IMG/VR virus record: IMGVR_UViG_3300009105_000005
Span: 1-64,000 of that record
Strand: one strand, 5' to 3'
DNA from: a virus
Length of the DNA stretch: 64,000 nucleotides
The notes beneath the pieces were generated by a model that had not been told where the DNA came from, made no database searches, and worked only from the letters and a program-made list of their open reading frames with translations. Each line of letters begins with the position of its first letter. The first letter of the stretch is position 1. Positions 30,579 through 56,538 of this stretch are shown one piece after another. The translations under genes and the position numbers were made by a program.

Positions 30579-32267
30579 TTAAGAATCTTTTAAGATTTCT
30601 TCGGGAACAATGCCGGCCAGATCAGTTCCGGATTTAATAAGCAAATCGATCAACTCGCCCTTTTTGCAAACTTCAAAGCTGCCGTTACCAAGAGTTTGCC
30701 CCAGGTAGTCCTTAATTTCCGGACGTTCTGCAATCTTGAACTTATCATCGTTGAGCAGAGTGATGATTTCAGCTTTTTGTTTCTTTTTAAGGAAATCTTC
30801 GGTTATCATCCATTCTGCTTGAAGATCAACACCGACAAGATCAGCAATTTTGAAACGGCCGCTTGCTGAAAATCCTGAACTCATAATGGTTTCAACTGCC
30901 GTGGTTTGCAGAAGTTGTTTAACCGAACTAATGTCCAGGCCATTGACAAAATCAACGATGTCCTTGTCGCCCATACGGAACCATTTGCTTCCGCCAAGCT
31001 TGAAATCTTCATTGAGCTTTTCATGTAGTTCCGGCCTGGCGCTGATGATGGCAATTAAAGACAGCCGATAGGACTTTTCATTGTTCGACTTGATGGCCTG
31101 AATCTTTTTTGGAATAGATGTTTCAAAATGAATTTCCCGAAACTCAACGCCATGCTTTTGAGAACGTTGCTGTGTACGTTCCTTTTTAGCCTGCATATCC
31201 AGAGTAGCTTGGGCCTGTGGGTCTTTCGGAGCCTGTTTTTCTTTAGCGTTGAAACAACTTTCTTCACCGAAGCAAGCTTTTTGCGCCCATACGCTTCCGT
31301 CCAGCCGGATAACGGACTTAAAATAATCGCAAGAAGCGCATTTTTCCTTTAAACTGCCGTCACCAAATCCGAATTCCCTGTAAGCATCCCTGTCAACCTG
31401 TTCGTTGAACTCAAACCCTGTAGTTTTATGGTCCTTATAATAACCAGTTTTTTTCCAGTGCTTTGTTAGATGTTCTCCTTGCTTTTCAGCAAAGCAGTCC
31501 GGCTTCAAACAGCTCATATTTTCGATATCATCTTTGGCGAATAAAGACTTCTGAATGTCCGAATTATGAGGACATTGCGTACAGCCAGCTTCTTTGGTTT
31601 TGAATTTAGCATTTTTGAGCTGAGGTGAAAAATTATTGATCGAACGGCGAAGTTGATCTACGCTGGTTTTGCGTCCATAACTTTCATGGTCATCAACCAT
31701 TTCATTAAACAGCTTCAAAGCAACACTCGGTTCAATACGAATAAATTGTTCCAGATGACCATAACTAAGAAAACCTTTGTTCCATGCCTGGAGGACTTTC
31801 TTTGGAAGTTCCAGTACCTTAATCCGTTTTTGAACATACGGTGCCGGCTTCCCACAGCGGTCGGCAATAACGTTGATGTCGGCGTCTTCAACGTTGTCAA
31901 TATACCTTTTGAACCCTTCGGCTTCTTCCAAAGGCGTCAGATCGTCCCGTTGAATATTTTCAGTCAGCATGAACTCAATGGCTTGATCGTCCGTCATTTC
32001 ACGAACCAATGCGGGAATTTGAAGCTCTTTCACTCCGCCGTTGCCCTTAGCGGCTTTCTTAGCAGCCTTGATACGCCGTTCACCGGCAATCAATTCGTAA
32101 TCCTTGCCATTTGGCCTTAAAAGAACCGGTTGCAAAATGCCCTGTGTTTTGATCGATTCAACAAGTTCATCAAAGTCCGGCCCCTTGAATCGCCCTCTAC
32201 CCCTGACATTAAAACCCTTAACGATGTTAATGTCGGCAAATAATACGTGCTTTAATTCTTCCGTCAT
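30579..32267 (-). CDS. ParB/RepB/Spo0J-like protein with extended C-terminus
   Basis: 562 residues from the ATG at 32267, which has AGGAGA upstream; an in-frame ATG at 32306 lacks one. The ParB N-terminal CTPase/nuclease-like domain has AGERRIKAAK (61-70) and ENIQRDDLTPLEEAEGF (103-119), followed by an HTH (about 127-155). The long C-terminal part has a Cys cluster (GCTQCPHNS, SCLKPDCFAEK) likely to bind zinc, then an uncharacterised helical region. It may act in plasmid-like partition of a prophage or as a DNA-binding regulator. No ParA is in the window. Confidence 0.8.
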   Translation of the reverse strand: MTEELKHVLFADINIVKGFNVRGRGRFKGPDFDELVESIKTQGILQPVLLRPNGKDYELIAGERRIKAAKKAAKGNGGVKELQIPALVREMTDDQAIEFMLTENIQRDDLTPLEEAEGFKRYIDNVEDADINVIADRCGKPAPYVQKRIKVLELPKKVLQAWNKGFLSYGHLEQFIRIEPSVALKLFNEMVDDHESYGRKTSVDQLRRSINNFSPQLKNAKFKTKEAGCTQCPHNSDIQKSLFAKDDIENMSCLKPDCFAEKQGEHLTKHWKKTGYYKDHKTTGFEFNEQVDRDAYREFGFGDGSLKEKCASCDYFKSVIRLDGSVWAQKACFGEESCFNAKEKQAPKDPQAQATLDMQAKKERTQQRSQKHGVEFREIHFETSIPKKIQAIKSNNEKSYRLSLIAIISARPELHEKLNEDFKLGGSKWFRMGDKDIVDFVNGLDISSVKQLLQTTAVETIMSSGFSASGRFKIADLVGVDLQAEWMITEDFLKKKQKAEIITLLNDDKFKIAERPEIKDYLGQTLGNGSFEVCKKGELIDLLIKSGTDLAGIVPEEILKDS

Positions 32268-32326
32268 GTGGTAAATCTCCTTTTTAAAATTATAGTTACA
32301 CGGCAAATTTCTTGCCGTGAAAACAA

Positions 32327-38149: not shown

Positions 38150-38154
38150 AAAAG

Positions 38155-38228
38155 TGACGCGTACGGGATTTGAACCCGTGAATACCGGCGTGAAAGACCG
38201 GTGTGTTCGACCGCTTCACCAACGCGCC
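38155..38228 (-). tRNA. tRNA-Glu (UUC)
   Basis: Acceptor GGCGCGT/ACGCGTC (one G-U), D-arm GTGAAGCGGTCGAACAC, anticodon stem CCGGT/GCCGG with loop CTTTCAC (anticodon TTC), T-arm CGGG-TTCAAAT-CCCG. CCA is not encoded. It begins 41 nt beyond the last repeat of the TIGR array on the same strand, so array and tRNAs could share a transcript. Confidence 0.9.
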
Positions 38229-38268: not shown

Positions 38269-38692
38269 AAAATCGCTGAACAAGATTGGTTTTCTTCTTC
38301 TTTCTGACCCACTACTGCTCGTTGGATTTCTTGTAAGGATTGATTCGCTAACAAATGACTGGATTACTCTCACCTCCTGGCACGCTATTTGACAATGGAT
38401 TTCTTTGTCCTCCTGACTCGCTATATTGTGCTGGTTTGCTTACACCAAATGACTCGCTAAATTATGTTGGGTTAATTTTTCCATAGACTCGCTGTGGTAA
38501 ATTGGGTTTCTCCCCCTTTCTGGCACACTTCAAACTTATTGGATTTCTAACCCTTTCTGATCCACTACTTTAATCTGGTTTTCTTGCCAGGGACGGTACG
38601 CTAAAGATGTCAGGGTTTCTGTATATCGATGACTCGCTACAAGATGTTGGATTTCTTAATGCCAATGACTCGCTATGACACTTAGGGTTACT
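38269..38692 (-). repeat. TIGR (tandem interspaced guide RNA) array, 12 units
   Basis: Two 9-nt repeats alternate on the minus strand: B (consensus AGAAATCCA) and A (consensus AGCGAGTCA), separated by spacers of 9 nt (a few of 8 or 10). B starts every 36 nt from 38684 down to 38287 (12 copies) and A from 38666 to 38269 (12 copies, the last degenerate AGCGATTTT). That gives 23 spacers between repeats, nearly all different, e.g. AAGTGTCAT, TTGGCATTA, ACATCTTGT, TCGATATAC. The 36-nt unit with two spacers is the layout of TIGR arrays, processed to 36-nt guide RNAs. It starts 7 nt after the Tas stop on the same strand, so one transcript probably carries both. Confidence 0.93.
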
Positions 38693-38699
38693 AACGGAC

Positions 38700-39569
38700 T
38701 TAAGCAGCCTTCTTATGCTCCATGCCAAGCTTGGCCTCACTGTATTCAACTGAAACAGGTAAACCCTCAATCGCACGCCACGCAATATGCAGATCCACAA
38801 GAAAACGCTTCACCGCATACCGCAAAGCCATACGATGACGATGCATTTTGGTCTTTTCTTGATGGTCCGGATGATTCTCAAGACGATTCTTGTAATCATA
38901 ATAAGTCTTGGCATAATTAGACCGATCCGGCCCCAATCTCAAAAATGAAGTCCCAAGAACACCAAGCAACTTCGTCTTTAAAAACGGATTGAACGTTATG
39001 CTGTTTCGAAGCTTGGCCTCCCCGTCAGCAGCTTTATATTCAACCTCAATAAGATGCTCCTTGCGCTTACTCCGACCCTTGCCGTCCTCAGCAACGTCCA
39101 AACCCGCATACTTCCACAGTGAGGACGGATACTCCGCCTTTTCGATGTCAATCTCCGAAATAATCACACCGGCCATAGCGGGGCCCACGCCCTTAACCGA
39201 CTCCAAATACTTCGTCCAAAGCGGAAATTCAGCCAATATACCCTCTAATTGCTTAAAATGACGCTTCTCCGATTCCTCAAGTCCAATGTACTGAGAAATC
39301 AAAGCAAATTCCGTGTATGACGAAATAACACCCTCGGCCTTAAATTTCTTCCGGTTCGGCAAACTCAAAACACCGTCAGTAATCTTCCGAAAAGCAGCCC
39401 GAATGTCTTCCATGATCCGCTTACCTTCCTTGTCAAGCTCATCTTCCTTCTGACTCGGATCCAAACCCAACTTGGCCCTAAAGTTGGCAACCAACCGATT
39501 GCCAGTCTGAATTCTTAATTTCTGAACGGTATAACAACCCCGAACCATAGTCTTTAAATACTGTTTCAT
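38700..39569 (-). CDS. Tas-type Nop-domain protein without nuclease domain (TIGR-associated)
   Basis: 289 residues. Residues 1-120 form long charged helices like the coiled coil of Nop5/Nop56 and IS110 C-terminal regions. The core is SVKGVGPAMAGVIISEID (124-141) with SSLWKYAGLDV (149-159), the Nop/Transposase_20 signature, and a basic region follows (GKGRSKRKEH). There is no RuvC DEDD domain and no HNH, so it is neither a complete IS110 transposase nor a nuclease-bearing Tas. In TIGR-Tas systems such proteins bind array-derived guide RNAs with two spacers and recognise DNA. Strong ribosome site AAGGAGAA, overlapping the palindrome 39581-39595. It may block or mark DNA rather than cut it, or recruit a partner. 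Confidence 0.85.
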   Translation of the reverse strand: MKQYLKTMVRGCYTVQKLRIQTGNRLVANFRAKLGLDPSQKEDELDKEGKRIMEDIRAAFRKITDGVLSLPNRKKFKAEGVISSYTEFALISQYIGLEESEKRHFKQLEGILAEFPLWTKYLESVKGVGPAMAGVIISEIDIEKAEYPSSLWKYAGLDVAEDGKGRSKRKEHLIEVEYKAADGEAKLRNSITFNPFLKTKLLGVLGTSFLRLGPDRSNYAKTYYDYKNRLENHPDHQEKTKMHRHRMALRYAVKRFLVDLHIAWRAIEGLPVSVEYSEAKLGMEHKKAA

Positions 39570-49286: not shown

Positions 49287-51827
49287 TTATAGATCTATAA
49301 AATACCATCCACCCCTTTGCCTTGTGGGAGCCAGTATAATCAATTTTTCCTTAGCCCTTGTCATGCCGACATAAAACAGTCTGTAGATTTCATCTTTCTT
49401 TTGAGCAATGTTTTTGCCATCGGTCAGTTCTTTATATCCTTGATATGAAATATCAGGAAATAGATAGATGCAATTATGTACAACTATTTTATTTGCAATA
49501 TAATAATGCCACGGCTGGACCTTTAAAGAATATACCTTTCCATTATATAAATATTCTGAATATTCAGGCGTAAACCATTTTGCTTGTTGCTTTCCAACAT
49601 CAACCGGAACTTTCATTAGCCCTGGTAAAAAATTCACTGCTATTATTTCAAAACTATAATTTTGCCCTACCACTTGATTTCTTTTTGCTGAAATATTATT
49701 TTTATAAAACGGCCAACGAATATCCCGCCCAAATTCTTTAAGTAAATCAACAGCACGATTTTCCATACCTTTAAAACTGTTAAAAATATTATCAATCTTT
49801 TCTTGAGAAAGACTTCCCCTTGTAGCACGAAATACCATTCCAGAAATTCCATATTGAGTAGTTATTTTTGCTTCTTCAACTAAAGCATCGTATATATTAT
49901 CATGAACACCTAAGATCCATGATACTTCCGCACCTTCTCTACGAGTACGACCGCCAAGCCCAAATTGATATTTATCTCTACCTTTACGATTAAAATTATA
50001 TATAAGTTTACATTGTCCCACTCTCCACCAATTTTTCTTTTTCATTAAATAAGTAATATATTTCTTTTTTGCTAAATTATTTAATCTAACTGTCAAATGG
50101 TGATTAGGTGTTACCTCAGTAATGGCATCATCTTTTTTTAAGCAAATAATTTTTCCATTATATAATTGTGATGCTTTTATAAAACTATATCCATATAGGC
50201 CATTACTTCGCCTGCGTGTACCACGAAGAATTTTACTATTTCTTAAACTGAAACTAACAAGTTTATGTTTTGTAGAATCAAGGTTTCGAATTGGGATATA
50301 CCCATTAGTAGTTAAAATAGGAGTGTGCCCTGGATGGCAATCGGCTTCTCCGCCCTTAACACTATGGATGGTTCCAATAATAATTTTAGGCCGTTCACGA
50401 ACAGCTTCTTCCCCAAATCTCTTATACACACGGATAGGATAATCGAGTGCCGGTTGTCGGGATGCTAAAAGGTTTCCGTAAAGCCAGTCGATATCGCGGT
50501 TTAATGCCGGAGTTACCGCTTCGGCAGTTAAAAGCTGCTTTAGAACGTTTCTGGCAGTATGCAATCCTTCATGGCCTTCATCAATTGCCGCTTTCAGGGC
50601 TTTTATTCCCGCTTTTCCTTGTTTACGGATTAGGCCGCTCTCTCCAACTTTCAGATATTGCGCCCAAGAAATAAACTGCGGAATATTCCAATAATTATCA
50701 TCTATTCCACATGAAGCGAAGTTGACCAGCAGATCTCTGGCCGTAACTTTAGAATTTCCTGATTGAAGTGGGTTCCAGTCGCTTCTTTCTCTGCGGTATG
50801 GATTATGAAATGGCATTCCCTGTTCTCTCAGCAGCCTTTTTATCGGATCGATCATATAGGCGCATGTTGCCAGAAACATGATTGTTTTGCCTTCAAGAAG
50901 ATGCTGTTTAGCGTGGCCGAGAATAGCGTCCGGGTTGGTATATGTTTCATCAAGGATTTCTACGCTGCCTTCTGCTTGCCTTGGACTGTATTCTTTAGGT
51001 TCTCTTTTAGATATTTTACCTGTTAGCCTTATAGCCCTTTCAAAGACTGCCCTTGGAACTCTATATGACTGATCCAGAACCCTTTTAAATTTTTCATCTA
51101 TCGGCGGATTTAAAAAAGCATCCGGTGTTGCTCCGGCAAAACCATAAATAGTCTGATCATCATCTCCGACCAGAACGATCCATTGAGCCTGATTGCCCCA
51201 ACTTCTGACCAGCTCTAATTGTAGCCTTGTAAAATCCTGTGCTTCATCGACAAAGATTACATCCGGATTACCCGGGGCATAAGGAAGATCGGTTAGTGCA
51301 GTTTCGATCAGGTCGGTAAAATCCATAAAATCGCACTGCTTTTTAAAATCGTCCCATGCTTTGCTAAACGCCCTTAAAGCATATGGCCAATATCGGCGAT
51401 CGATCATTTTAGCCCTAAAGATATTCAGCATATTGAGAAGTTTATTCCCGCTATGTCTGCTTTCAATTCCATCAAGGTCACCACCGGCCATGGTGCTTTC
51501 GTCAAGACCGCCGATTCCTTTTTCATCGATGGCATACCTTGGATGCTCGGTGTTAAATTGCTTAAGATTCTTTTCAGCGATCTGTGGATTTCCAAGCTGG
51601 CGATAACAAAGGGCATGTAGTGTTCCAACGTGCTGTGGGTTCACAGGGATGGTTCGGCCAGTAGCAATACTTTTCTTGGATGCTATTTCCTGTGCGCCGG
51701 CTCGCGTAAAAGATGTGACGACCACTTTATCTGTGCCGAACTTTCTCACAGCATTAGGGATCTCCTCTGTAGCCAATCTGGTGCTTTTTCCCGTTCCCGG
51801 CGGCCCGAATATTCGAAGTTCCTTCAT
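49287..51827 (-). CDS. SF1 (UvrD/PcrA-like) DNA helicase, interrupted by an intein
   Basis: An 846-residue precursor; removing the intein (497-785) leaves about 557 residues. Motif I FGPPGTGKST (7-16), Ia VVTSFTRAGAQEI, motif II VIFVDEAQDF, motif III VLVGDDDQTIYGF, IV/V around TIHSVKGGEAD, and motif VI FYVGMTRAKEKL are all present. It unwinds DNA in replication or repair. The intein splits motif V between Asp496 and Cys786, so the helicase is inactive until spliced. Only a weak ribosome site is visible. Confidence 0.92.
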   Translation of the reverse strand: MKELRIFGPPGTGKSTRLATEEIPNAVRKFGTDKVVVTSFTRAGAQEIASKKSIATGRTIPVNPQHVGTLHALCYRQLGNPQIAEKNLKQFNTEHPRYAIDEKGIGGLDESTMAGGDLDGIESRHSGNKLLNMLNIFRAKMIDRRYWPYALRAFSKAWDDFKKQCDFMDFTDLIETALTDLPYAPGNPDVIFVDEAQDFTRLQLELVRSWGNQAQWIVLVGDDDQTIYGFAGATPDAFLNPPIDEKFKRVLDQSYRVPRAVFERAIRLTGKISKREPKEYSPRQAEGSVEILDETYTNPDAILGHAKQHLLEGKTIMFLATCAYMIDPIKRLLREQGMPFHNPYRRERSDWNPLQSGNSKVTARDLLVNFASCGIDDNYWNIPQFISWAQYLKVGESGLIRKQGKAGIKALKAAIDEGHEGLHTARNVLKQLLTAEAVTPALNRDIDWLYGNLLASRQPALDYPIRVYKRFGEEAVRERPKIIIGTIHSVKGGEADCHPGHTPILTTNGYIPIRNLDSTKHKLVSFSLRNSKILRGTRRRSNGLYGYSFIKASQLYNGKIICLKKDDAITEVTPNHHLTVRLNNLAKKKYITYLMKKKNWWRVGQCKLIYNFNRKGRDKYQFGLGGRTRREGAEVSWILGVHDNIYDALVEEAKITTQYGISGMVFRATRGSLSQEKIDNIFNSFKGMENRAVDLLKEFGRDIRWPFYKNNISAKRNQVVGQNYSFEIIAVNFLPGLMKVPVDVGKQQAKWFTPEYSEYLYNGKVYSLKVQPWHYYIANKIVVHNCIYLFPDISYQGYKELTDGKNIAQKKDEIYRLFYVGMTRAKEKLIILAPTRQRGGWYFIDL
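49473..50339 (-). mobile_element. Intein in helicase motif V
   Basis: 289 residues. It begins with Cys (CHPGHTPILTTNGYIPIRNL), has block B-like DDAITEVTPNHHLTVRL, block F-like VYSLKVQPWHYYIANKIVVHN and ends in His-Asn before Cys+1, so all splice residues are standard. The insert between splicing blocks (about 105 residues, SWILGVHDNIYDALVEEAKI, AVDLLKEFGRDIRWP) contains no LAGLIDADG pair and no HNH that I can see. It is either a degenerate or an unrecognised endonuclease. Confidence 0.9.
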
Positions 51828-52134
51828 TTTTTATTTTGGCCCTTTATATATAAGACAGCTTTCTTCGACTACCAAAACGCCTCGTACCTCTCCTGACATG
51901 TGGATTGTAGTCGGTTTGTAGTCGGAATGTATTCGATTTGTAGTCATAGTTAAGTATGTACAATTAAAGATTATTTTATTGATGTAGTCAGATAGTCAGA
52001 TTGAAACAAAAAAAGTAAAAAAGGTTTTCTATATATATAAGGACTACAAAACTTATTCTTTCTAAGTCCAAAGTCCCAAGTTCCAACCACCGTGACCATC
52101 GCAGCCGGCGTTAAGTTCCAAGTTCGTTATTTTA
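51828..52134. promoter_or_regulatory. AT-rich spacer with GTAGTC repeats (possible replication origin)
   Basis: Between the primase and helicase genes. TTGTAGTCGG occurs twice head-to-tail (51905-51914, 51916-51925), TTGTAGTC again at 51938-51945, and TAGTCAGA twice (51985-52000), beside long A/T tracts. Short iterated motifs next to AT-rich DNA and primase/helicase genes are typical of origins. Chance repeats or a regulatory role are not excluded. Confidence 0.35.
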
Positions 52135-52197
52135 TATTTCGCTATCTTTCTGTGGGTTTCTTTTTTCACTTGGCTCGCTACCTCTCTTGGGGTTAAT
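52135..52197 (-). repeat. Short TIGR-type array at the primase stop codon
   Basis: Minus strand: B ATTAACCCC (52197-52189), spacer AAGAGAGGT, A AGCGAGCCA (52179-52171), spacer AGTGAAAAA, B AGAAACCCA (52161-52153), spacer CAGAAAGAT, A AGCGAAATA (52143-52135, degenerate). Period is 36 nt for both repeat types. The primase TAA lies inside the first B repeat. The last A keeps AGCGA but loses the rest, as does the terminal A of the main array. Confidence 0.8.
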
Positions 52198-54112
52198 CAT
52201 GCCTATCGGCGTTTCTTTTATCATCCAGATGTACCACGTCGGCTCCTTCGGATTCTGCCTGCGGTGCGGTGTTTAGTGTTCTTGATGGATCGATTATTGC
52301 TATGGGGACTTTCCAGCATTTAACTGAGGTTACTTTTTTATCGGTCTTTTTCCTGTAGCTGATACTTTTCTTTGATAACCCAAGGTCAAATTCCAATATT
52401 CGGAACAGGATTTCTCTTGGGTCTCGGTTGTTGCATGTTTGTCGGGTATAGGCATCGAACTGTATGGGGAACATGTACCAATTGCCTTTATGGATGAACG
52501 GTTGGTTGTCGGGCGCGCCTTCTTCGACTGGGTATTTTGGTCGGCTCTTGAGATACTTTTTTAGCCAGATTTTAACGATGCCGATTGCAGTACGCATTTC
52601 ATCGACAGGCACATCTTCAACTATTGACATGATAAGGTCTGCGAGTTTGTCATCCCATTCCTTTTTTGAGCATACGATTCTTTTTTTAATTAAGTTACCG
52701 ACTTGTTCTCTGAACTGGCGGAATTCCATTAGTTTATTTGAACTTCGGAATTCCGTTTTTTTATTATTGACAATCAGCCGGAACACTGGCGGATCTTCCG
52801 GGAAGCACAGAATTCTGATATCTTGAAAGCCAAGGCGTTTACAGACAGCTTTGCGGTTTTGGTCAATGTTTTGATAATCGGAGCCGGTAAGGTCGGCGGC
52901 GACATCTACGGCTTTTTGGGCTTCTTCGGTTTCGATCTTTGAGCGGGCATTGATGATCGTCCGGATGTACTTTTGTATATTGCTCAGGTGTAAGTCATGG
53001 CCGTGCTTACGCCTGAACGCAATCATGAGATCCATGATCTCTTGATCTGTCCAGTTGCATTGGGCTGCCATTAAAGCCAGTGTGAAATCGTAGCCCGAAG
53101 GTGATGTGTCGTTGAGTTCATCATCTCGGTCATTATTCCAGGTGTTTATAAATTCGGGTGCAAATATTTGGTTGATAGCGGCGAACTTTTCGAAGGACGG
53201 TTCAGCATTTTCGTTAAGTTCCAAGGTCTTTGATTTTTCTTTGATTTCCTGGGTTATATTTACGACCTTATTGGCGCTTGTATTTTTTGGTTTACTTTCC
53301 GAACAAGACTCGCTATCCGTAATAGGGTTGCTCGCTCCCCGTGGCTCGCTTTTCCCAAGTGGGTTGCTGGCGCTTGATGGCTCGCTGACGACTTCAGGGT
53401 TACTCTGGGTTATTGGCTCGCTATTTGAGATTAGGTTACTTGAGATGCTTGGCTCAATTTCAAGCAGGATTTCATCGAAATCATCCGGGTTGTATCTGAC
53501 TTTTTCGTTATACTGCAACACTGTGGCCATGACAGGGTCGCAGTTTTCTTTTTGATTGACTGTACCGATCGGACGCATTAGGCGGTCTAAATTAGAAGTG
53601 TTGTCGATTTCCCATCCTTTTTCATTGGCACGTTCTTTGATGGTGGCCTGTAGCCGGCGGGAAAGTCCCAAGGTTTCTGCCCATTCATCTTGGTCGTCAA
53701 ACATCAAGGGTTCTTTGAACAACCACCACGCCTGGAGTCCATGTCCGGAGTGCATGATTATGGTTGGGTCCCACCCATAACTTTCGATCAGTGAGCGTGC
53801 TTCTTCGATGGTTGCAGGCAGGTTTTTCTTTTTATGGGCGTGTTTATGCTGGACGTCTATATCGATGAAGAAGCCCGGGATGCCGTGAACTTGATCGACG
53901 GTCATTCTTTTATATTTGCCACGGTTTTGCCATGACATACCGGCGCAGATGTAGATATTTTGCTTACCTGCAATATAAGCGGCGGCTTCCAGGTGGCTTT
54001 GGAACCATTTGGACCGGCCTTGTTTTGGGTCGAGATCTTTTTCCCATGTTAAGATCCAGGTCCGATCATCTTTGAGGCCGAACAGTTGGTCTATAAATTG
54101 CTTAGTGTCCAT
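52193..54112 (-). CDS. Archaeo-eukaryotic-type primase with PriCT-like domain (RepB/PrimPol-like)
   Basis: 639 residues. AEP primase motifs: FFIDIDVQHKH with Asp84/Asp86, HSGHGLQAWWLF (121-132) and DRLMRPIGTVNQK (176-188). A linker (219-275) is made of alternating Ser-Glu-Pro and Ser-Asn-Pro every six residues, which is the translated TIGR-type array. A PriCT-like helical domain follows (about 300-395, GYDFTLALMAAQCNWTDQEI), then a C-terminal domain of unknown type. It should prime or initiate phage replication together with the downstream helicase. Start: ATG 54112 with GGAG at some distance. Confidence 0.85.
   Translation of the reverse strand: MDTKQFIDQLFGLKDDRTWILTWEKDLDPKQGRSKWFQSHLEAAAYIAGKQNIYICAGMSWQNRGKYKRMTVDQVHGIPGFFIDIDVQHKHAHKKKNLPATIEEARSLIESYGWDPTIIMHSGHGLQAWWLFKEPLMFDDQDEWAETLGLSRRLQATIKERANEKGWEIDNTSNLDRLMRPIGTVNQKENCDPVMATVLQYNEKVRYNPDDFDEILLEIEPSISSNLISNSEPITQSNPEVVSEPSSASNPLGKSEPRGASNPITDSESCSESKPKNTSANKVVNITQEIKEKSKTLELNENAEPSFEKFAAINQIFAPEFINTWNNDRDDELNDTSPSGYDFTLALMAAQCNWTDQEIMDLMIAFRRKHGHDLHLSNIQKYIRTIINARSKIETEEAQKAVDVAADLTGSDYQNIDQNRKAVCKRLGFQDIRILCFPEDPPVFRLIVNNKKTEFRSSNKLMEFRQFREQVGNLIKKRIVCSKKEWDDKLADLIMSIVEDVPVDEMRTAIGIVKIWLKKYLKSRPKYPVEEGAPDNQPFIHKGNWYMFPIQFDAYTRQTCNNRDPREILFRILEFDLGLSKKSISYRKKTDKKVTSVKCWKVPIAIIDPSRTLNTAPQAESEGADVVHLDDKRNADRHD
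53288..53458 (-). repeat. TIGR-type array embedded in frame inside the primase gene
   Basis: Ten repeats, alternately A and B, each 9 nt, separated by nine spacers of exactly 9 nt. On the minus strand: A ATTGAGCCA (degenerate), B AGTAACCTA, A AGCGAGCCA, B AGTAACCCT, A AGCGAGCCA, B AGCAACCCA, A AGCGAGCCA, B AGCAACCCT, A AGCGAGTCT, B AGTAAACCA. A starts at 53450, 53414, 53378, 53342, 53306; B at 53432, 53396, 53360, 53324, 53288. Spacers include ATCTCAAAT, ATAACCCAG, GAAGTCGTC, TCAAGCGCC, CTTGGGAAA. The 36-nt period equals twelve codons, so the array is open and in frame. Confidence 0.9.
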
Positions 54113-54118
54113 AAATGA

Positions 54119-54607
54119 CTATAATTTCTCCTGTTCGGTATAGATTGCTTTTCTTAGCACTCTTTCATAATCGATCAGATAGTAGTATTTGTCGGTGAAG
54201 ACTTTTTTGACTTTATACCGGGCTGTTTTATGGGAAATACCAATGATAATACCTTCTCCAAACTGTTGAATAACGACATAGTCTCCAAATTTAAAATCCG
54301 GCCTAATATTACACCAGTTTACCCATTTCATTACCCATTCCGTATAGACAGTGTTGTGGTCGTAATAAATTTCTTCGAGTATTTCTATGAGTTCTGTATT
54401 AATGCCATACCAACAGCATTTGTCGTCCAGAAATTTTGCAAGTTTGTATCCGTTACTTGCACCTTCGAATTTAATTGCTTTAAGAAGGTCACTCCGGATT
54501 TGCTTTTCATCGTATTCTGATCCTTGATGCCAGTTAATGACGTTTTTAATTGTCCGATCTATGGTTCCATTGATGATGCCAGGATCGTATTTCCATGGCC
54601 GTTTCAT
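54119..54607 (-). CDS. Hypothetical protein upstream of primase
   Basis: 162 residues from ATG 54607 (AAGGGGA upstream; in-frame ATGs further out lack it). Aromatic, helical (ELIEILEEIYYDHNTVYTEW), with a C-terminal SH3-like stretch FGDYVVIQQFGEGIIIGISH related in pattern to the start of the protein at 47,698. Ends six nt before the primase ATG. Not recognised. Confidence 0.6.
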   Translation of the reverse strand: MKRPWKYDPGIINGTIDRTIKNVINWHQGSEYDEKQIRSDLLKAIKFEGASNGYKLAKFLDDKCCWYGINTELIEILEEIYYDHNTVYTEWVMKWVNWCNIRPDFKFGDYVVIQQFGEGIIIGISHKTARYKVKKVFTDKYYYLIDYERVLRKAIYTEQEKL

Positions 54608-54896
54608 GGTGTTCCCCTTTGCCCTGTTTTTCCCCATTTTTTGGCATGGTTCCAACATAAAAACAGGGCGGCTTTTTGAGTTGAAACTCACATGGCTTAT
54701 CGCTACATATGGTTCAACTGATTGCCGCCCTATTTTTTTTGGGGGATTAAGTTGGAGTGTCTGATTGCTCCCCAGGGCTAATGCTTTACGGCTACATTTG
54801 CGCTTGAGACATTATTGCCGTCGTCCGGGCTTATTCGGTCTTATTGGACAGGAAGCGAGTTTTGCAGCGCCCGACAGACACTAAGTTTATAGCAAG
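54608..54896 (-). terminator. Long hairpin/terminator and noncoding spacer
   Basis: AGGGCGGC (54665-54672) pairs with GCCGCCCT (54724-54731), and inside it AGTTGAA (54679-54685) pairs with TTCAACT (54713-54719). On the minus strand the stem is followed by GTTTTTATG, on the plus strand by ATTTTTTTT. It probably ends the transcript of the 263-residue protein gene. The rest of the spacer (54732-54896) holds no gene; a further weak CGGGC/GCCCG pairing is present. Confidence 0.65.
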
Positions 54897-55688
54897 TTAG
54901 GCTGCTGCCTTTTGTTCGGCGGCCGGAGCATCGTATCCGGCCTCGGTGTGCGCCATTTCCTTGGCTGTCTTTTTCAGGAACGGAGTGATGTTTGCGACAT
55001 ACTCGTTAATGGCCGGAATTTGCTCGGCCGGAATTGAATCCTTCAACGGAGTGAAGATAACCTTGCTGTACTCCACGCTTCCGGTGCGGGATTTATCCTT
55101 TTCCAGAGTCAGCCGTGTAACCACGTGATGCGGTTCCATACCGGCCGAAGTTAGCCCAATCAGGTATTGAAGGGCGTTCTTCAATGAGGCCGGAGCAGCG
55201 TTTAGGGTCATGGGCAGGATGTTCCCTTCCCGCAGGAAGAAGAACGTGCGTTTTTTGCTGCACGCCTGACCATCGCCTTTGCCGCCCTTAGCGGTTCCGA
55301 ATTTGGCCATGGGGCAATCTTTGCACTTACCGGATGCGCTCGGGCATTCGGGGTTGCCGATGCCGTTGACTGCATCTTCGGAGAAACAATCCGGTGGAGT
55401 TGGATCGCCTTCGCCGTAGGGAACTTCCCAATAGGTACGATTGACGGCATTATAGATGATAAGAACATTCAATTCTTTTATTTCATCGATGCCGCCGAAT
55501 TTCGGAACTTCCCATGTGGTTCCGCCGGAGCCGGGGATTTTTACCCGTTCCAGATCCAGAGCGGAAAGCTGTTCTCCGCCGAGGTTGTTTTCGATAACCT
55601 CTTTGATGTCAATGTCCTGACGCATAATGGCATAATTTTGAATGCCGACTACAGCCACTTCCTTGCCTTTTGTATTTTTTTTACTCAT
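54897..55688 (-). CDS. Phage protein with cysteine cluster, probable replication accessory
   Basis: 263 residues. N-terminal helical/beta part, a central zinc-like cluster (PECPSASGKCKDCPMAKFG then GQACSKKRTFFFLREG), a C-terminal helical part and an Ala/Lys tail. Proteins of this type lie near primases in long-tailed phages and may bind ssDNA; no family name is certain. AGGAG is 14 nt upstream. High GC suggests good expression. Confidence 0.6.
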   Translation of the reverse strand: MSKKNTKGKEVAVVGIQNYAIMRQDIDIKEVIENNLGGEQLSALDLERVKIPGSGGTTWEVPKFGGIDEIKELNVLIIYNAVNRTYWEVPYGEGDPTPPDCFSEDAVNGIGNPECPSASGKCKDCPMAKFGTAKGGKGDGQACSKKRTFFFLREGNILPMTLNAAPASLKNALQYLIGLTSAGMEPHHVVTRLTLEKDKSRTGSVEYSKVIFTPLKDSIPAEQIPAINEYVANITPFLKKTAKEMAHTEAGYDAPAAEQKAAA

Positions 55689-55781
55689 AAAGCTTCAATA
55701 CTCCTTGTTTAAGTGGTCTAAAGTTTAAAAGTTCAAAGTTTGTTTTTCCACCCCCTCTCTTATTTGATTCCGGTTTAGTGG

Positions 55782-56123
55782 TTATGCTGCCTTGGTCTGA
55801 GCGTCGGCAGGTTTGTCCACTGTTACGGTTTCTCCTACAGACGGGACTACCTTAATTTTCCTTTTGGAGACAATCACATCTGTTTGAGGTTTGTTAGAAA
55901 ACAAAGAAGACAAAATTTTATTATACCACTTTGCTTTTCGTTTCTTTTGGTTGAAGTAGGCGCGGGCGAGGCACACGATGCAGATCGATTCTTTATCAGG
56001 TTCGCTGATATCGATCCGGTGATCGGTGCATTTCAGTCCGCATTCGGCGCAGATTTTAAATCTTTTTTGGGGCGCATTACGGCCCCTGCCGACTTTAATT
56101 GCTTGAAAGATAATTTTACCCAT
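55782..56123 (-). CDS. Small zinc-finger protein
   Basis: 113 residues with ICAECGLKCTDH and SICIVCLARAYF forming a four-Cys zinc site, followed by a basic stretch (KKRKAKWYNK) and a beta-rich tail. AAAGGAAA precedes the ATG. Likely nucleic-acid or protein-binding; not assigned. Confidence 0.55.
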   Translation of the reverse strand: MGKIIFQAIKVGRGRNAPQKRFKICAECGLKCTDHRIDISEPDKESICIVCLARAYFNQKKRKAKWYNKILSSLFSNKPQTDVIVSKRKIKVVPSVGETVTVDKPADAQTKAA

Positions 56124-56145
56124 TGGTTTTCCTTTCTATAGGTAT

Positions 56146-56538
56146 TTATGATGTTTTTGACCGGAGCGTAATAACGCTGTTGATACTGATACGGCCTTCG
56201 AATGCTTCGGGGAGCTTTTCGCCGTTTCTGGTCATTTCGGCAAGCAGGGCATTGAGTGAAGTAGTGTTATACCCTTCGTCAATATAGCTTTGGAAGCCTG
56301 CCTCTTTGAGTGCTTCGATGGCGTCCCTTTTGGATTTAACTTGAGACACGATACGGACATGCGGGTGGATTGTTCGGCCCAGGATAGTTATTTTGTCGAT
56401 CTTTTCGTCTGCGAGATTTTCCACCAGCGCCGGGCCGATATCGTTTTTGCGTTTTTTGAGCTTATTGACCTTGGCGTCAAGGTCAGCTATTTCATTTTCA
56501 AGTTGAGCAAATTCCCGTAATCCTTCCATGTCTAACAT
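56146..56538 (-). CDS. Coiled-coil protein, unknown
   Basis: 130 residues from ATG 56538 (AAAGGAGAA upstream; an ATG at 56580 has none). Residues 8-45 form a coiled coil (ENEIADLDAKVNKLKKRK) and the remainder a small alpha/beta domain. The layout recalls phage Gam/Gp157-like recombination accessories, but I cannot assign it. The palindrome 56585-56599 lies in its upstream region. Confidence 0.55.
   Translation of the reverse strand: MLDMEGLREFAQLENEIADLDAKVNKLKKRKNDIGPALVENLADEKIDKITILGRTIHPHVRIVSQVKSKRDAIEALKEAGFQSYIDEGYNTTSLNALLAEMTRNGEKLPEAFEGRISINSVITLRSKTS

Follow-up and report, generated by a model that had tools for sequence, protein, structure and literature searches.

A complete TIGR-type guide array written in frame inside a phage primase gene

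In the window analysed here, which is the 64,000-nt portion of the 74-kb IMG/VR virus record IMGVR_UViG_3300009105_000005 and represents a tailed phage (genes for tail-fibre J, tape-measure and terminase are present), a complete five-unit TIGR array lies in frame between the catalytic and the C-terminal domains of a primase, and its repeats are conserved as DNA and not as peptide. With a probability of roughly 70%, the primase mRNA would be the precursor of five guide RNAs from this array and of two more from its 3' end, which would be bound by the TasA protein of the phage and whose production would compete with translation. In other TIGR systems, including those with TasA, arrays are cut to 36-nt tigRNAs in a Tas-dependent manner by a host RNase, TasA binds such RNAs, and the arrays described flank tas on one side or on both (Faure et al. 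2025, PMC12045711). The primase gene and its array are laid out as follows.

52193..54112, minus strand: AEP-type (archaeo-eukaryotic) primase gene, 639 amino acids, with the array inside; PHROG 2478 DNA polymerase/primase (1.1e-11) and AEP motifs
53459..54112, minus strand: AEP catalytic domain, residues 1-218; 79 IMG/VR relatives, the best 34-40% identical
53275..53454, minus strand: in-frame TIGR array, consisting of a 5'-truncated edge AGCCA, five units of spacer A, loop, spacer B and edge, and a 3'-truncated edge AGCG
53414..53449, minus strand: unit 1, spacer AGCATCTCA, loop AGTAACCTA, spacer ATCTCAAAT, edge AGCGAGCCA
53378..53413, minus strand: unit 2, spacer ATAACCCAG, loop AGTAACCCT, spacer GAAGTCGTC, edge AGCGAGCCA
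53342..53377, minus strand: unit 3, spacer TCAAGCGCC, loop AGCAACCCA, spacer CTTGGGAAA, edge AGCGAGCCA
53306..53341, minus strand: unit 4, spacer CGGGGAGCG, loop AGCAACCCT, spacer ATTACGGAT, edge AGCGAGTCT
53275..53305, minus strand: unit 5, spacer TGTTCGGAA, loop AGTAAACCA, spacer AAAAATACA, truncated edge AGCG
52196..53200, minus strand: C-terminal part of the primase, PriCT-like, opening with a conserved PSFEKF / W..xRxD block that relatives share after a linker of 24-36 amino acids

Residues 219-279 of the primase are encoded by edge and loop repeats of TIGR type in alternation, and on the minus strand from 53458 to 53288 repeats of the AGCGAGCCA type alternate with those of the AGTAACCCT/AGCAACCCA type at an exact pitch of 18 nt. 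The original prediction had thus placed the array correctly; its nine 9-nt spacers at 53288-53458 were right in length and short in number, as there are ten different 9-nt spacers in exactly five 36-nt units and the array extends by another 12 nt, to 53275. Two distinct repeats of 8-12 nt alternate (edge AGCGAGYC, loop AGYAAMCC), with an identity of 0.80 between repeats of the same parity vs 0.60 across parities, and both start with AG and end with CC or TC plus N, corresponding to box D and box C ends common to edge and loop. Translated, edges give Ser-Glu-Pro and loops Ser-Asn-Pro, as had been proposed. Spacers are variable, with a mean pairwise identity of 0.26 (0.28-0.29 in the intergenic array next to tas), and pairs of repeats one pitch apart with at most one mismatch number 10 in the window vs 0.01 expected, seven of them in the primase array, two in a mini-array at the end of the same gene and one in the Tas-linked array.

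Three pattern scans of IMG/VR yielded 384 non-redundant arrays of the primase-array repeat type. Those with at least six repeats (338 arrays) open with AGCCA and close with AGCG, and 95% of their 8-10-nt spacers are 9 nt long. Since the primase array carries the same truncated edges in register, AGCCA at 53454-53450 and AGCG at 53278-53275, its boundaries are canonical for TIGR arrays. Across arrays, most copies have C-G at edge positions 3 and 6, the alternatives being T-G and, in some, T-A. This resembles the edge pair for which covariation is described in TasR arrays; the latter have a UG...CCA motif that reportedly changes in edge and loop together (PMC12045711). RNA folding shows the primase array to be unstructured (z +1.3), in agreement with the published statement that TIGR arrays have no extended duplex before processing, and an Rfam scan returned tRNAs only.

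The identification of the array-bearing gene as a primase, made originally from sequence alone, is borne out by the PHROG match and by the DxD, SGxG..W and RxxR...N.K motifs, which align with those of relatives, and residues D84, D86, S122, G123, G125, R177, R180, N186 and K188 are invariant in a four-sequence alignment. The catalytic-domain relatives came from a profile scan of IMG/VR; among annotated phages, the sole relative of the primase is that of the Tsukamurella phage TPA4, part of which it matches at 34%, and the C-terminal part has none. An AlphaFold model of the primase from the single sequence had a mean confidence (pLDDT) of 39 and was not used. The linker from the catalytic domain to the PPFEKF block is 92 amino acids long here vs 24-36 in relatives of the same architecture, counting only those with readable boundaries and after two automatic parses that overran had been re-read by eye. 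The surplus, about 60 codons, is the length of five 36-nt units, and hence five units were inserted in frame. None of the primase relatives examined has an array at the linker site, and no close relatives bearing arrays were found for this primase or for the RecT protein described below.

Codon usage separates conservation of DNA from conservation of peptide. Glutamate is encoded by GAG in all five edge repeats vs one of 42 positions elsewhere in the primase, spacers included (Fisher 3.9e-6), the share of GAG across other genes examined being 125/669, and serine is AGY in nine of ten repeats vs 10 of 33 elsewhere in the gene (0.002). When the repeat peptides were recoded synonymously with the gene's own codons, none of 200,000 recodings reached the observed TIGR profile score. 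These results go against a repeat kept only as peptide with its synonymous codons free to drift, the pattern against which the original prediction had asked to be checked. Coding edges score 15.1 bits vs 8.9 bits for edges of the Tas-linked array, on a family profile that is biased toward the array-finding pattern and gives bits for comparison only; as they outscore the latter, the coding edges show no decay.

A second, smaller array, which the original prediction had missed, sits at the end of the same gene, and the primase transcript would thus carry seven units. The TAA stop codon of the primase lies within its first loop repeat, ATTAACCCC.

52140..52211, minus strand: two-unit mini-array across the primase stop codon, ending in the truncated edge AGCG

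The phage also encodes the protein that such guides would need, together with an array of the usual intergenic kind.

38700..39569, minus strand: TasA gene (Nop-domain protein), 289 amino acids; PF02371, 5e-6
38269..38692, minus strand: intergenic TIGR array linked to tas, immediately behind its stop codon; its 24 repeats make about 11 complete units

The Nop domain of this protein is related to those of TasR, TasH and IS110: a profile built from the window protein and 28 relatives matches the PDB entries of TasR (9mty, 1.6e-25) and TasH (21kl, 3.6e-19), and its predicted model (pLDDT 87) matches the folds of TasH and TasR and then that of IS621. A Pfam search of the 289 residues gave PF02371 only and no HNH or RuvC nuclease domain, and it is therefore classed as TasA. 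Relatives of it occur in many array-bearing IMG/VR loci. The Tas-linked array has mostly AGCGAGTCA edges vs AGCGAGCCA in the primase array, and its loops (AGAAAYCCA) start mostly with AGA vs AGY; AGTAACCCT is shared exactly. Thus the two arrays use the same family of repeats, as had been claimed, without being identical. Spacers of 8 and 10 nt are included in the Tas-linked array, from which the absence of deviating spacers in the primase had been taken as a sign that frame must be kept; this absence is real and weak as evidence for frame, since 20 of the 23 intergenic spacers are also 9 nt long. In the neighbourhood, a tRNA-Glu gene (anticodon TTC, 38154-38228) follows directly downstream of the Tas-linked array, and a ParB-like gene (30579-32306, PHROG 4715, 1.3e-29) lies about 6 kb from tas; in other systems, genes for TasA and parB-like genes are sometimes in one operon. 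The tas gene itself favours GAG (10 GAA vs 16 GAG), opposite to the strong GAA preference of the phage (544 GAA vs 125 GAG in other genes examined), which suggests its recent acquisition.

Coding arrays of this repeat type are also present in other, unrelated phages, where cases were kept only if homology or a coding signature was found on both flanks. This requirement matters because open reading frames on the antisense strand embed arrays in 44 cases vs four in sense; embedding proves nothing by itself and was rejected as evidence, and the claim rests on homology and codons. In one genome (G034), a RecT gene (PF03837, 4.7e-39) holds an array in the Ser-Glu-Pro/Ser-Asn-Pro frame within its C-terminal tail, a variable region without an array in its nearest named relatives; 46 more residues with a coding GC pattern follow the array, so both flanks are coding, the codon tests agree with the primase result, and a TasA flanked by arrays on either side is encoded in the genome. 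In a second (G003), the repeats lie in another frame of a triple helix-turn-helix (HTH) gene (2.6e-22), where they are translated as Glu-Arg-Ala and Glu-Arg-Thr, with a coding GC pattern on both sides of the array, no match in 100,000 recodings and a PF02371 Nop-domain gene in the genome. One DNA repeat read in two frames is hard to explain by selection on protein. A third genome (G059) contains a Tas relative and a gene, itself with relatives in phages, whose C-terminal tail consists of an array. Five further candidates (L105, L186, L252, L022, L046) were left uncertain. In 55 of 340 TIGR arrays a stop codon overlapping the first truncated edge opens the array, and such joining of arrays to gene ends offers a simple route toward their becoming coding. 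Elsewhere, a seven-repeat array (L145, 5549-5665, minus strand) lies in frame directly upstream of a Tas-like gene or within its N-terminus, and the same repeat type occurs in archaeal and bacterial contigs of metagenome-assembled genomes of Altiarchaeales, Spirochaetaceae and Bathyarchaeota (L349, L355, L361), with a Tas relative in each genome.

Array boundaries, spacer diversity, Tas homology and coding arrays in other genes and in another frame together support the proposal that one stretch of DNA serves as protein linker and as source of guides. About 60 codons of TIGR array were inserted into a linker that is short in relatives. In the course of events that we consider probable, TasA would bind the repeats on the primase mRNA and a host RNase would cut inside each edge repeat, as demonstrated in other TIGR systems, releasing five guide RNAs here and two from the 3' end, while the same mRNA, when translated, would give a primase with a longer, probably disordered Ser/Pro-rich linker. 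As each cut within an edge severs the message, maturation would be in competition with translation, and each transcript would yield either full-length primase or guides; guide supply would therefore follow expression of the replication gene and rising TasA would reduce primase. Transcription, Tas-dependent processing of the primase mRNA to tigRNAs and any regulatory link are what we infer from these sequence features. Several observations weigh against this account. Some 13.6 kb separate the primase array from tas, and no minus-strand terminator-like site is present in 51700-56200, an absence that is expected for an array inside a gene. Coding loops fit the family less well than those of the Tas array (7.1 vs 10.2 bits on the same comparative scale). 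No spacer has a target within two mismatches in the phage's own 64 kb, with a target geometry deduced from published cut sites, and the spacers did no better than shuffled ones. The other IMG/VR contigs of the phage are 100% identical, so there is no variation by which to gauge selection within the species, and coding arrays are rare, with three to four solid cases among the 384.

Some of these points could also mean that a linker able to tolerate insertions received a copied fragment of TIGR array as a passenger, harmless to the primase and yielding no functional guide RNA. The site is a variable interdomain linker, the RecT array likewise sits in a variable C-terminal tail, and both the distance from tas and the missing targets would be natural for a passenger. 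We consider this unlikely, as its edges have been preserved better than those of the Tas array, both ends carry the exact truncated edges required for five complete units, the same transcript has a second small array and similar arrays recur in unrelated genes. Considerably less probable is a role as regulatory site only, in which binding of TasA to the primase mRNA would lower its translation or stability and the excised RNAs would guide nothing: Tas does contact the repeats (PMC12045711), the array is inside a replication gene and a second repeat cluster is present at the 3' end of the same message, but pure binding needs neither ten different 9-nt spacers nor complete terminal half-edges.

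An in-frame pattern scan of bacterial genomes served as control for peptide repeats. Ser-Glu-Pro (SEP) peptide repeats found in this way (L348, L353, L354, L356, L358, L362) mimic the TIGR repeat at the DNA level and call for caution in pattern searches. A true peptide repeat is expected to repeat the whole unit, spacers included, with codons that follow gene usage, and the primase array does neither. In the bacterial cases spacer identity is 0.69-1.00, without clear A/B alternation, and six of seven such genomes tested had no Tas match, the remaining one having a weak match (1.5e-6). The diverse-spacer arrays L349 and L355 sit in Tas-bearing genomes. An ordinary Ser-Glu-Pro/Ser-Asn-Pro linker that came to resemble TIGR repeats through convergence is barely credible and was ruled out for the primase array, even though real SEP repeats match the same pattern, because the bacterial cases have near-identical spacers and mostly no Tas vs spacer identity of 0.26 and a TasA here, the repeat codons differ from the gene's own codons and, in another gene, these DNA repeats are translated in a different frame.

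Returning to guide production from the primase mRNA, a broader generalization is possible, with the odds leaning somewhat against it: TIGR arrays may form a class of dual-coding DNA in phages, placed in frame within disordered parts (linkers or tails) of proteins for replication, recombination and regulation, where competition of maturation with translation on one mRNA would tie RNA-guided targeting to expression of the gene that carries the array. Guide arrays are treated as non-coding, and to our knowledge an array doubling as an open reading frame would be the first case of a multi-guide array within a protein. If this is true, it would suggest how arrays lacking a promoter of their own get expressed, guide supply would be inherently linked to phage replication, and searches restricted to the tas neighbourhood would miss part of the TIGR guide repertoire. 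The earlier statement that no coding TIGR array has been described agrees with a term search of the text of PMC12045711 and of one review, which found none, within a literature collection in which few papers mention tigRNA.

Among known systems, TIGR-Tas of the TasA type (PMC12045711) shares the Nop-domain Tas, the alternating 8-12 nt edge and loop repeats, the 9-nt spacers, the 36-nt units, the truncated terminal edges and the C-box-like CCA ends, and differs in that the primase array is inside a coding sequence, in frame, far from tas and without a terminator. Bacterial Ser-Glu-Pro tandem-repeat linkers share the amino-acid motif and the 18-nt pitch, whereas their spacers are repeated too, clear alternation is absent and Tas is mostly lacking. 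PMC7994747, citing Tripp et al. 2017, describes archaeal C/D box small RNA (sRNA) genes, whose products are Nop-bound, as often holding the stop codon of the upstream gene in box C. Like the proposed primase guides, they are guides of a Nop-domain ribonucleoprotein cut from protein-coding transcripts, with the mini-array also carrying a stop codon; however, they overlap gene ends, whereas the primase array is a whole multi-guide array, internal to the gene and translated in frame.
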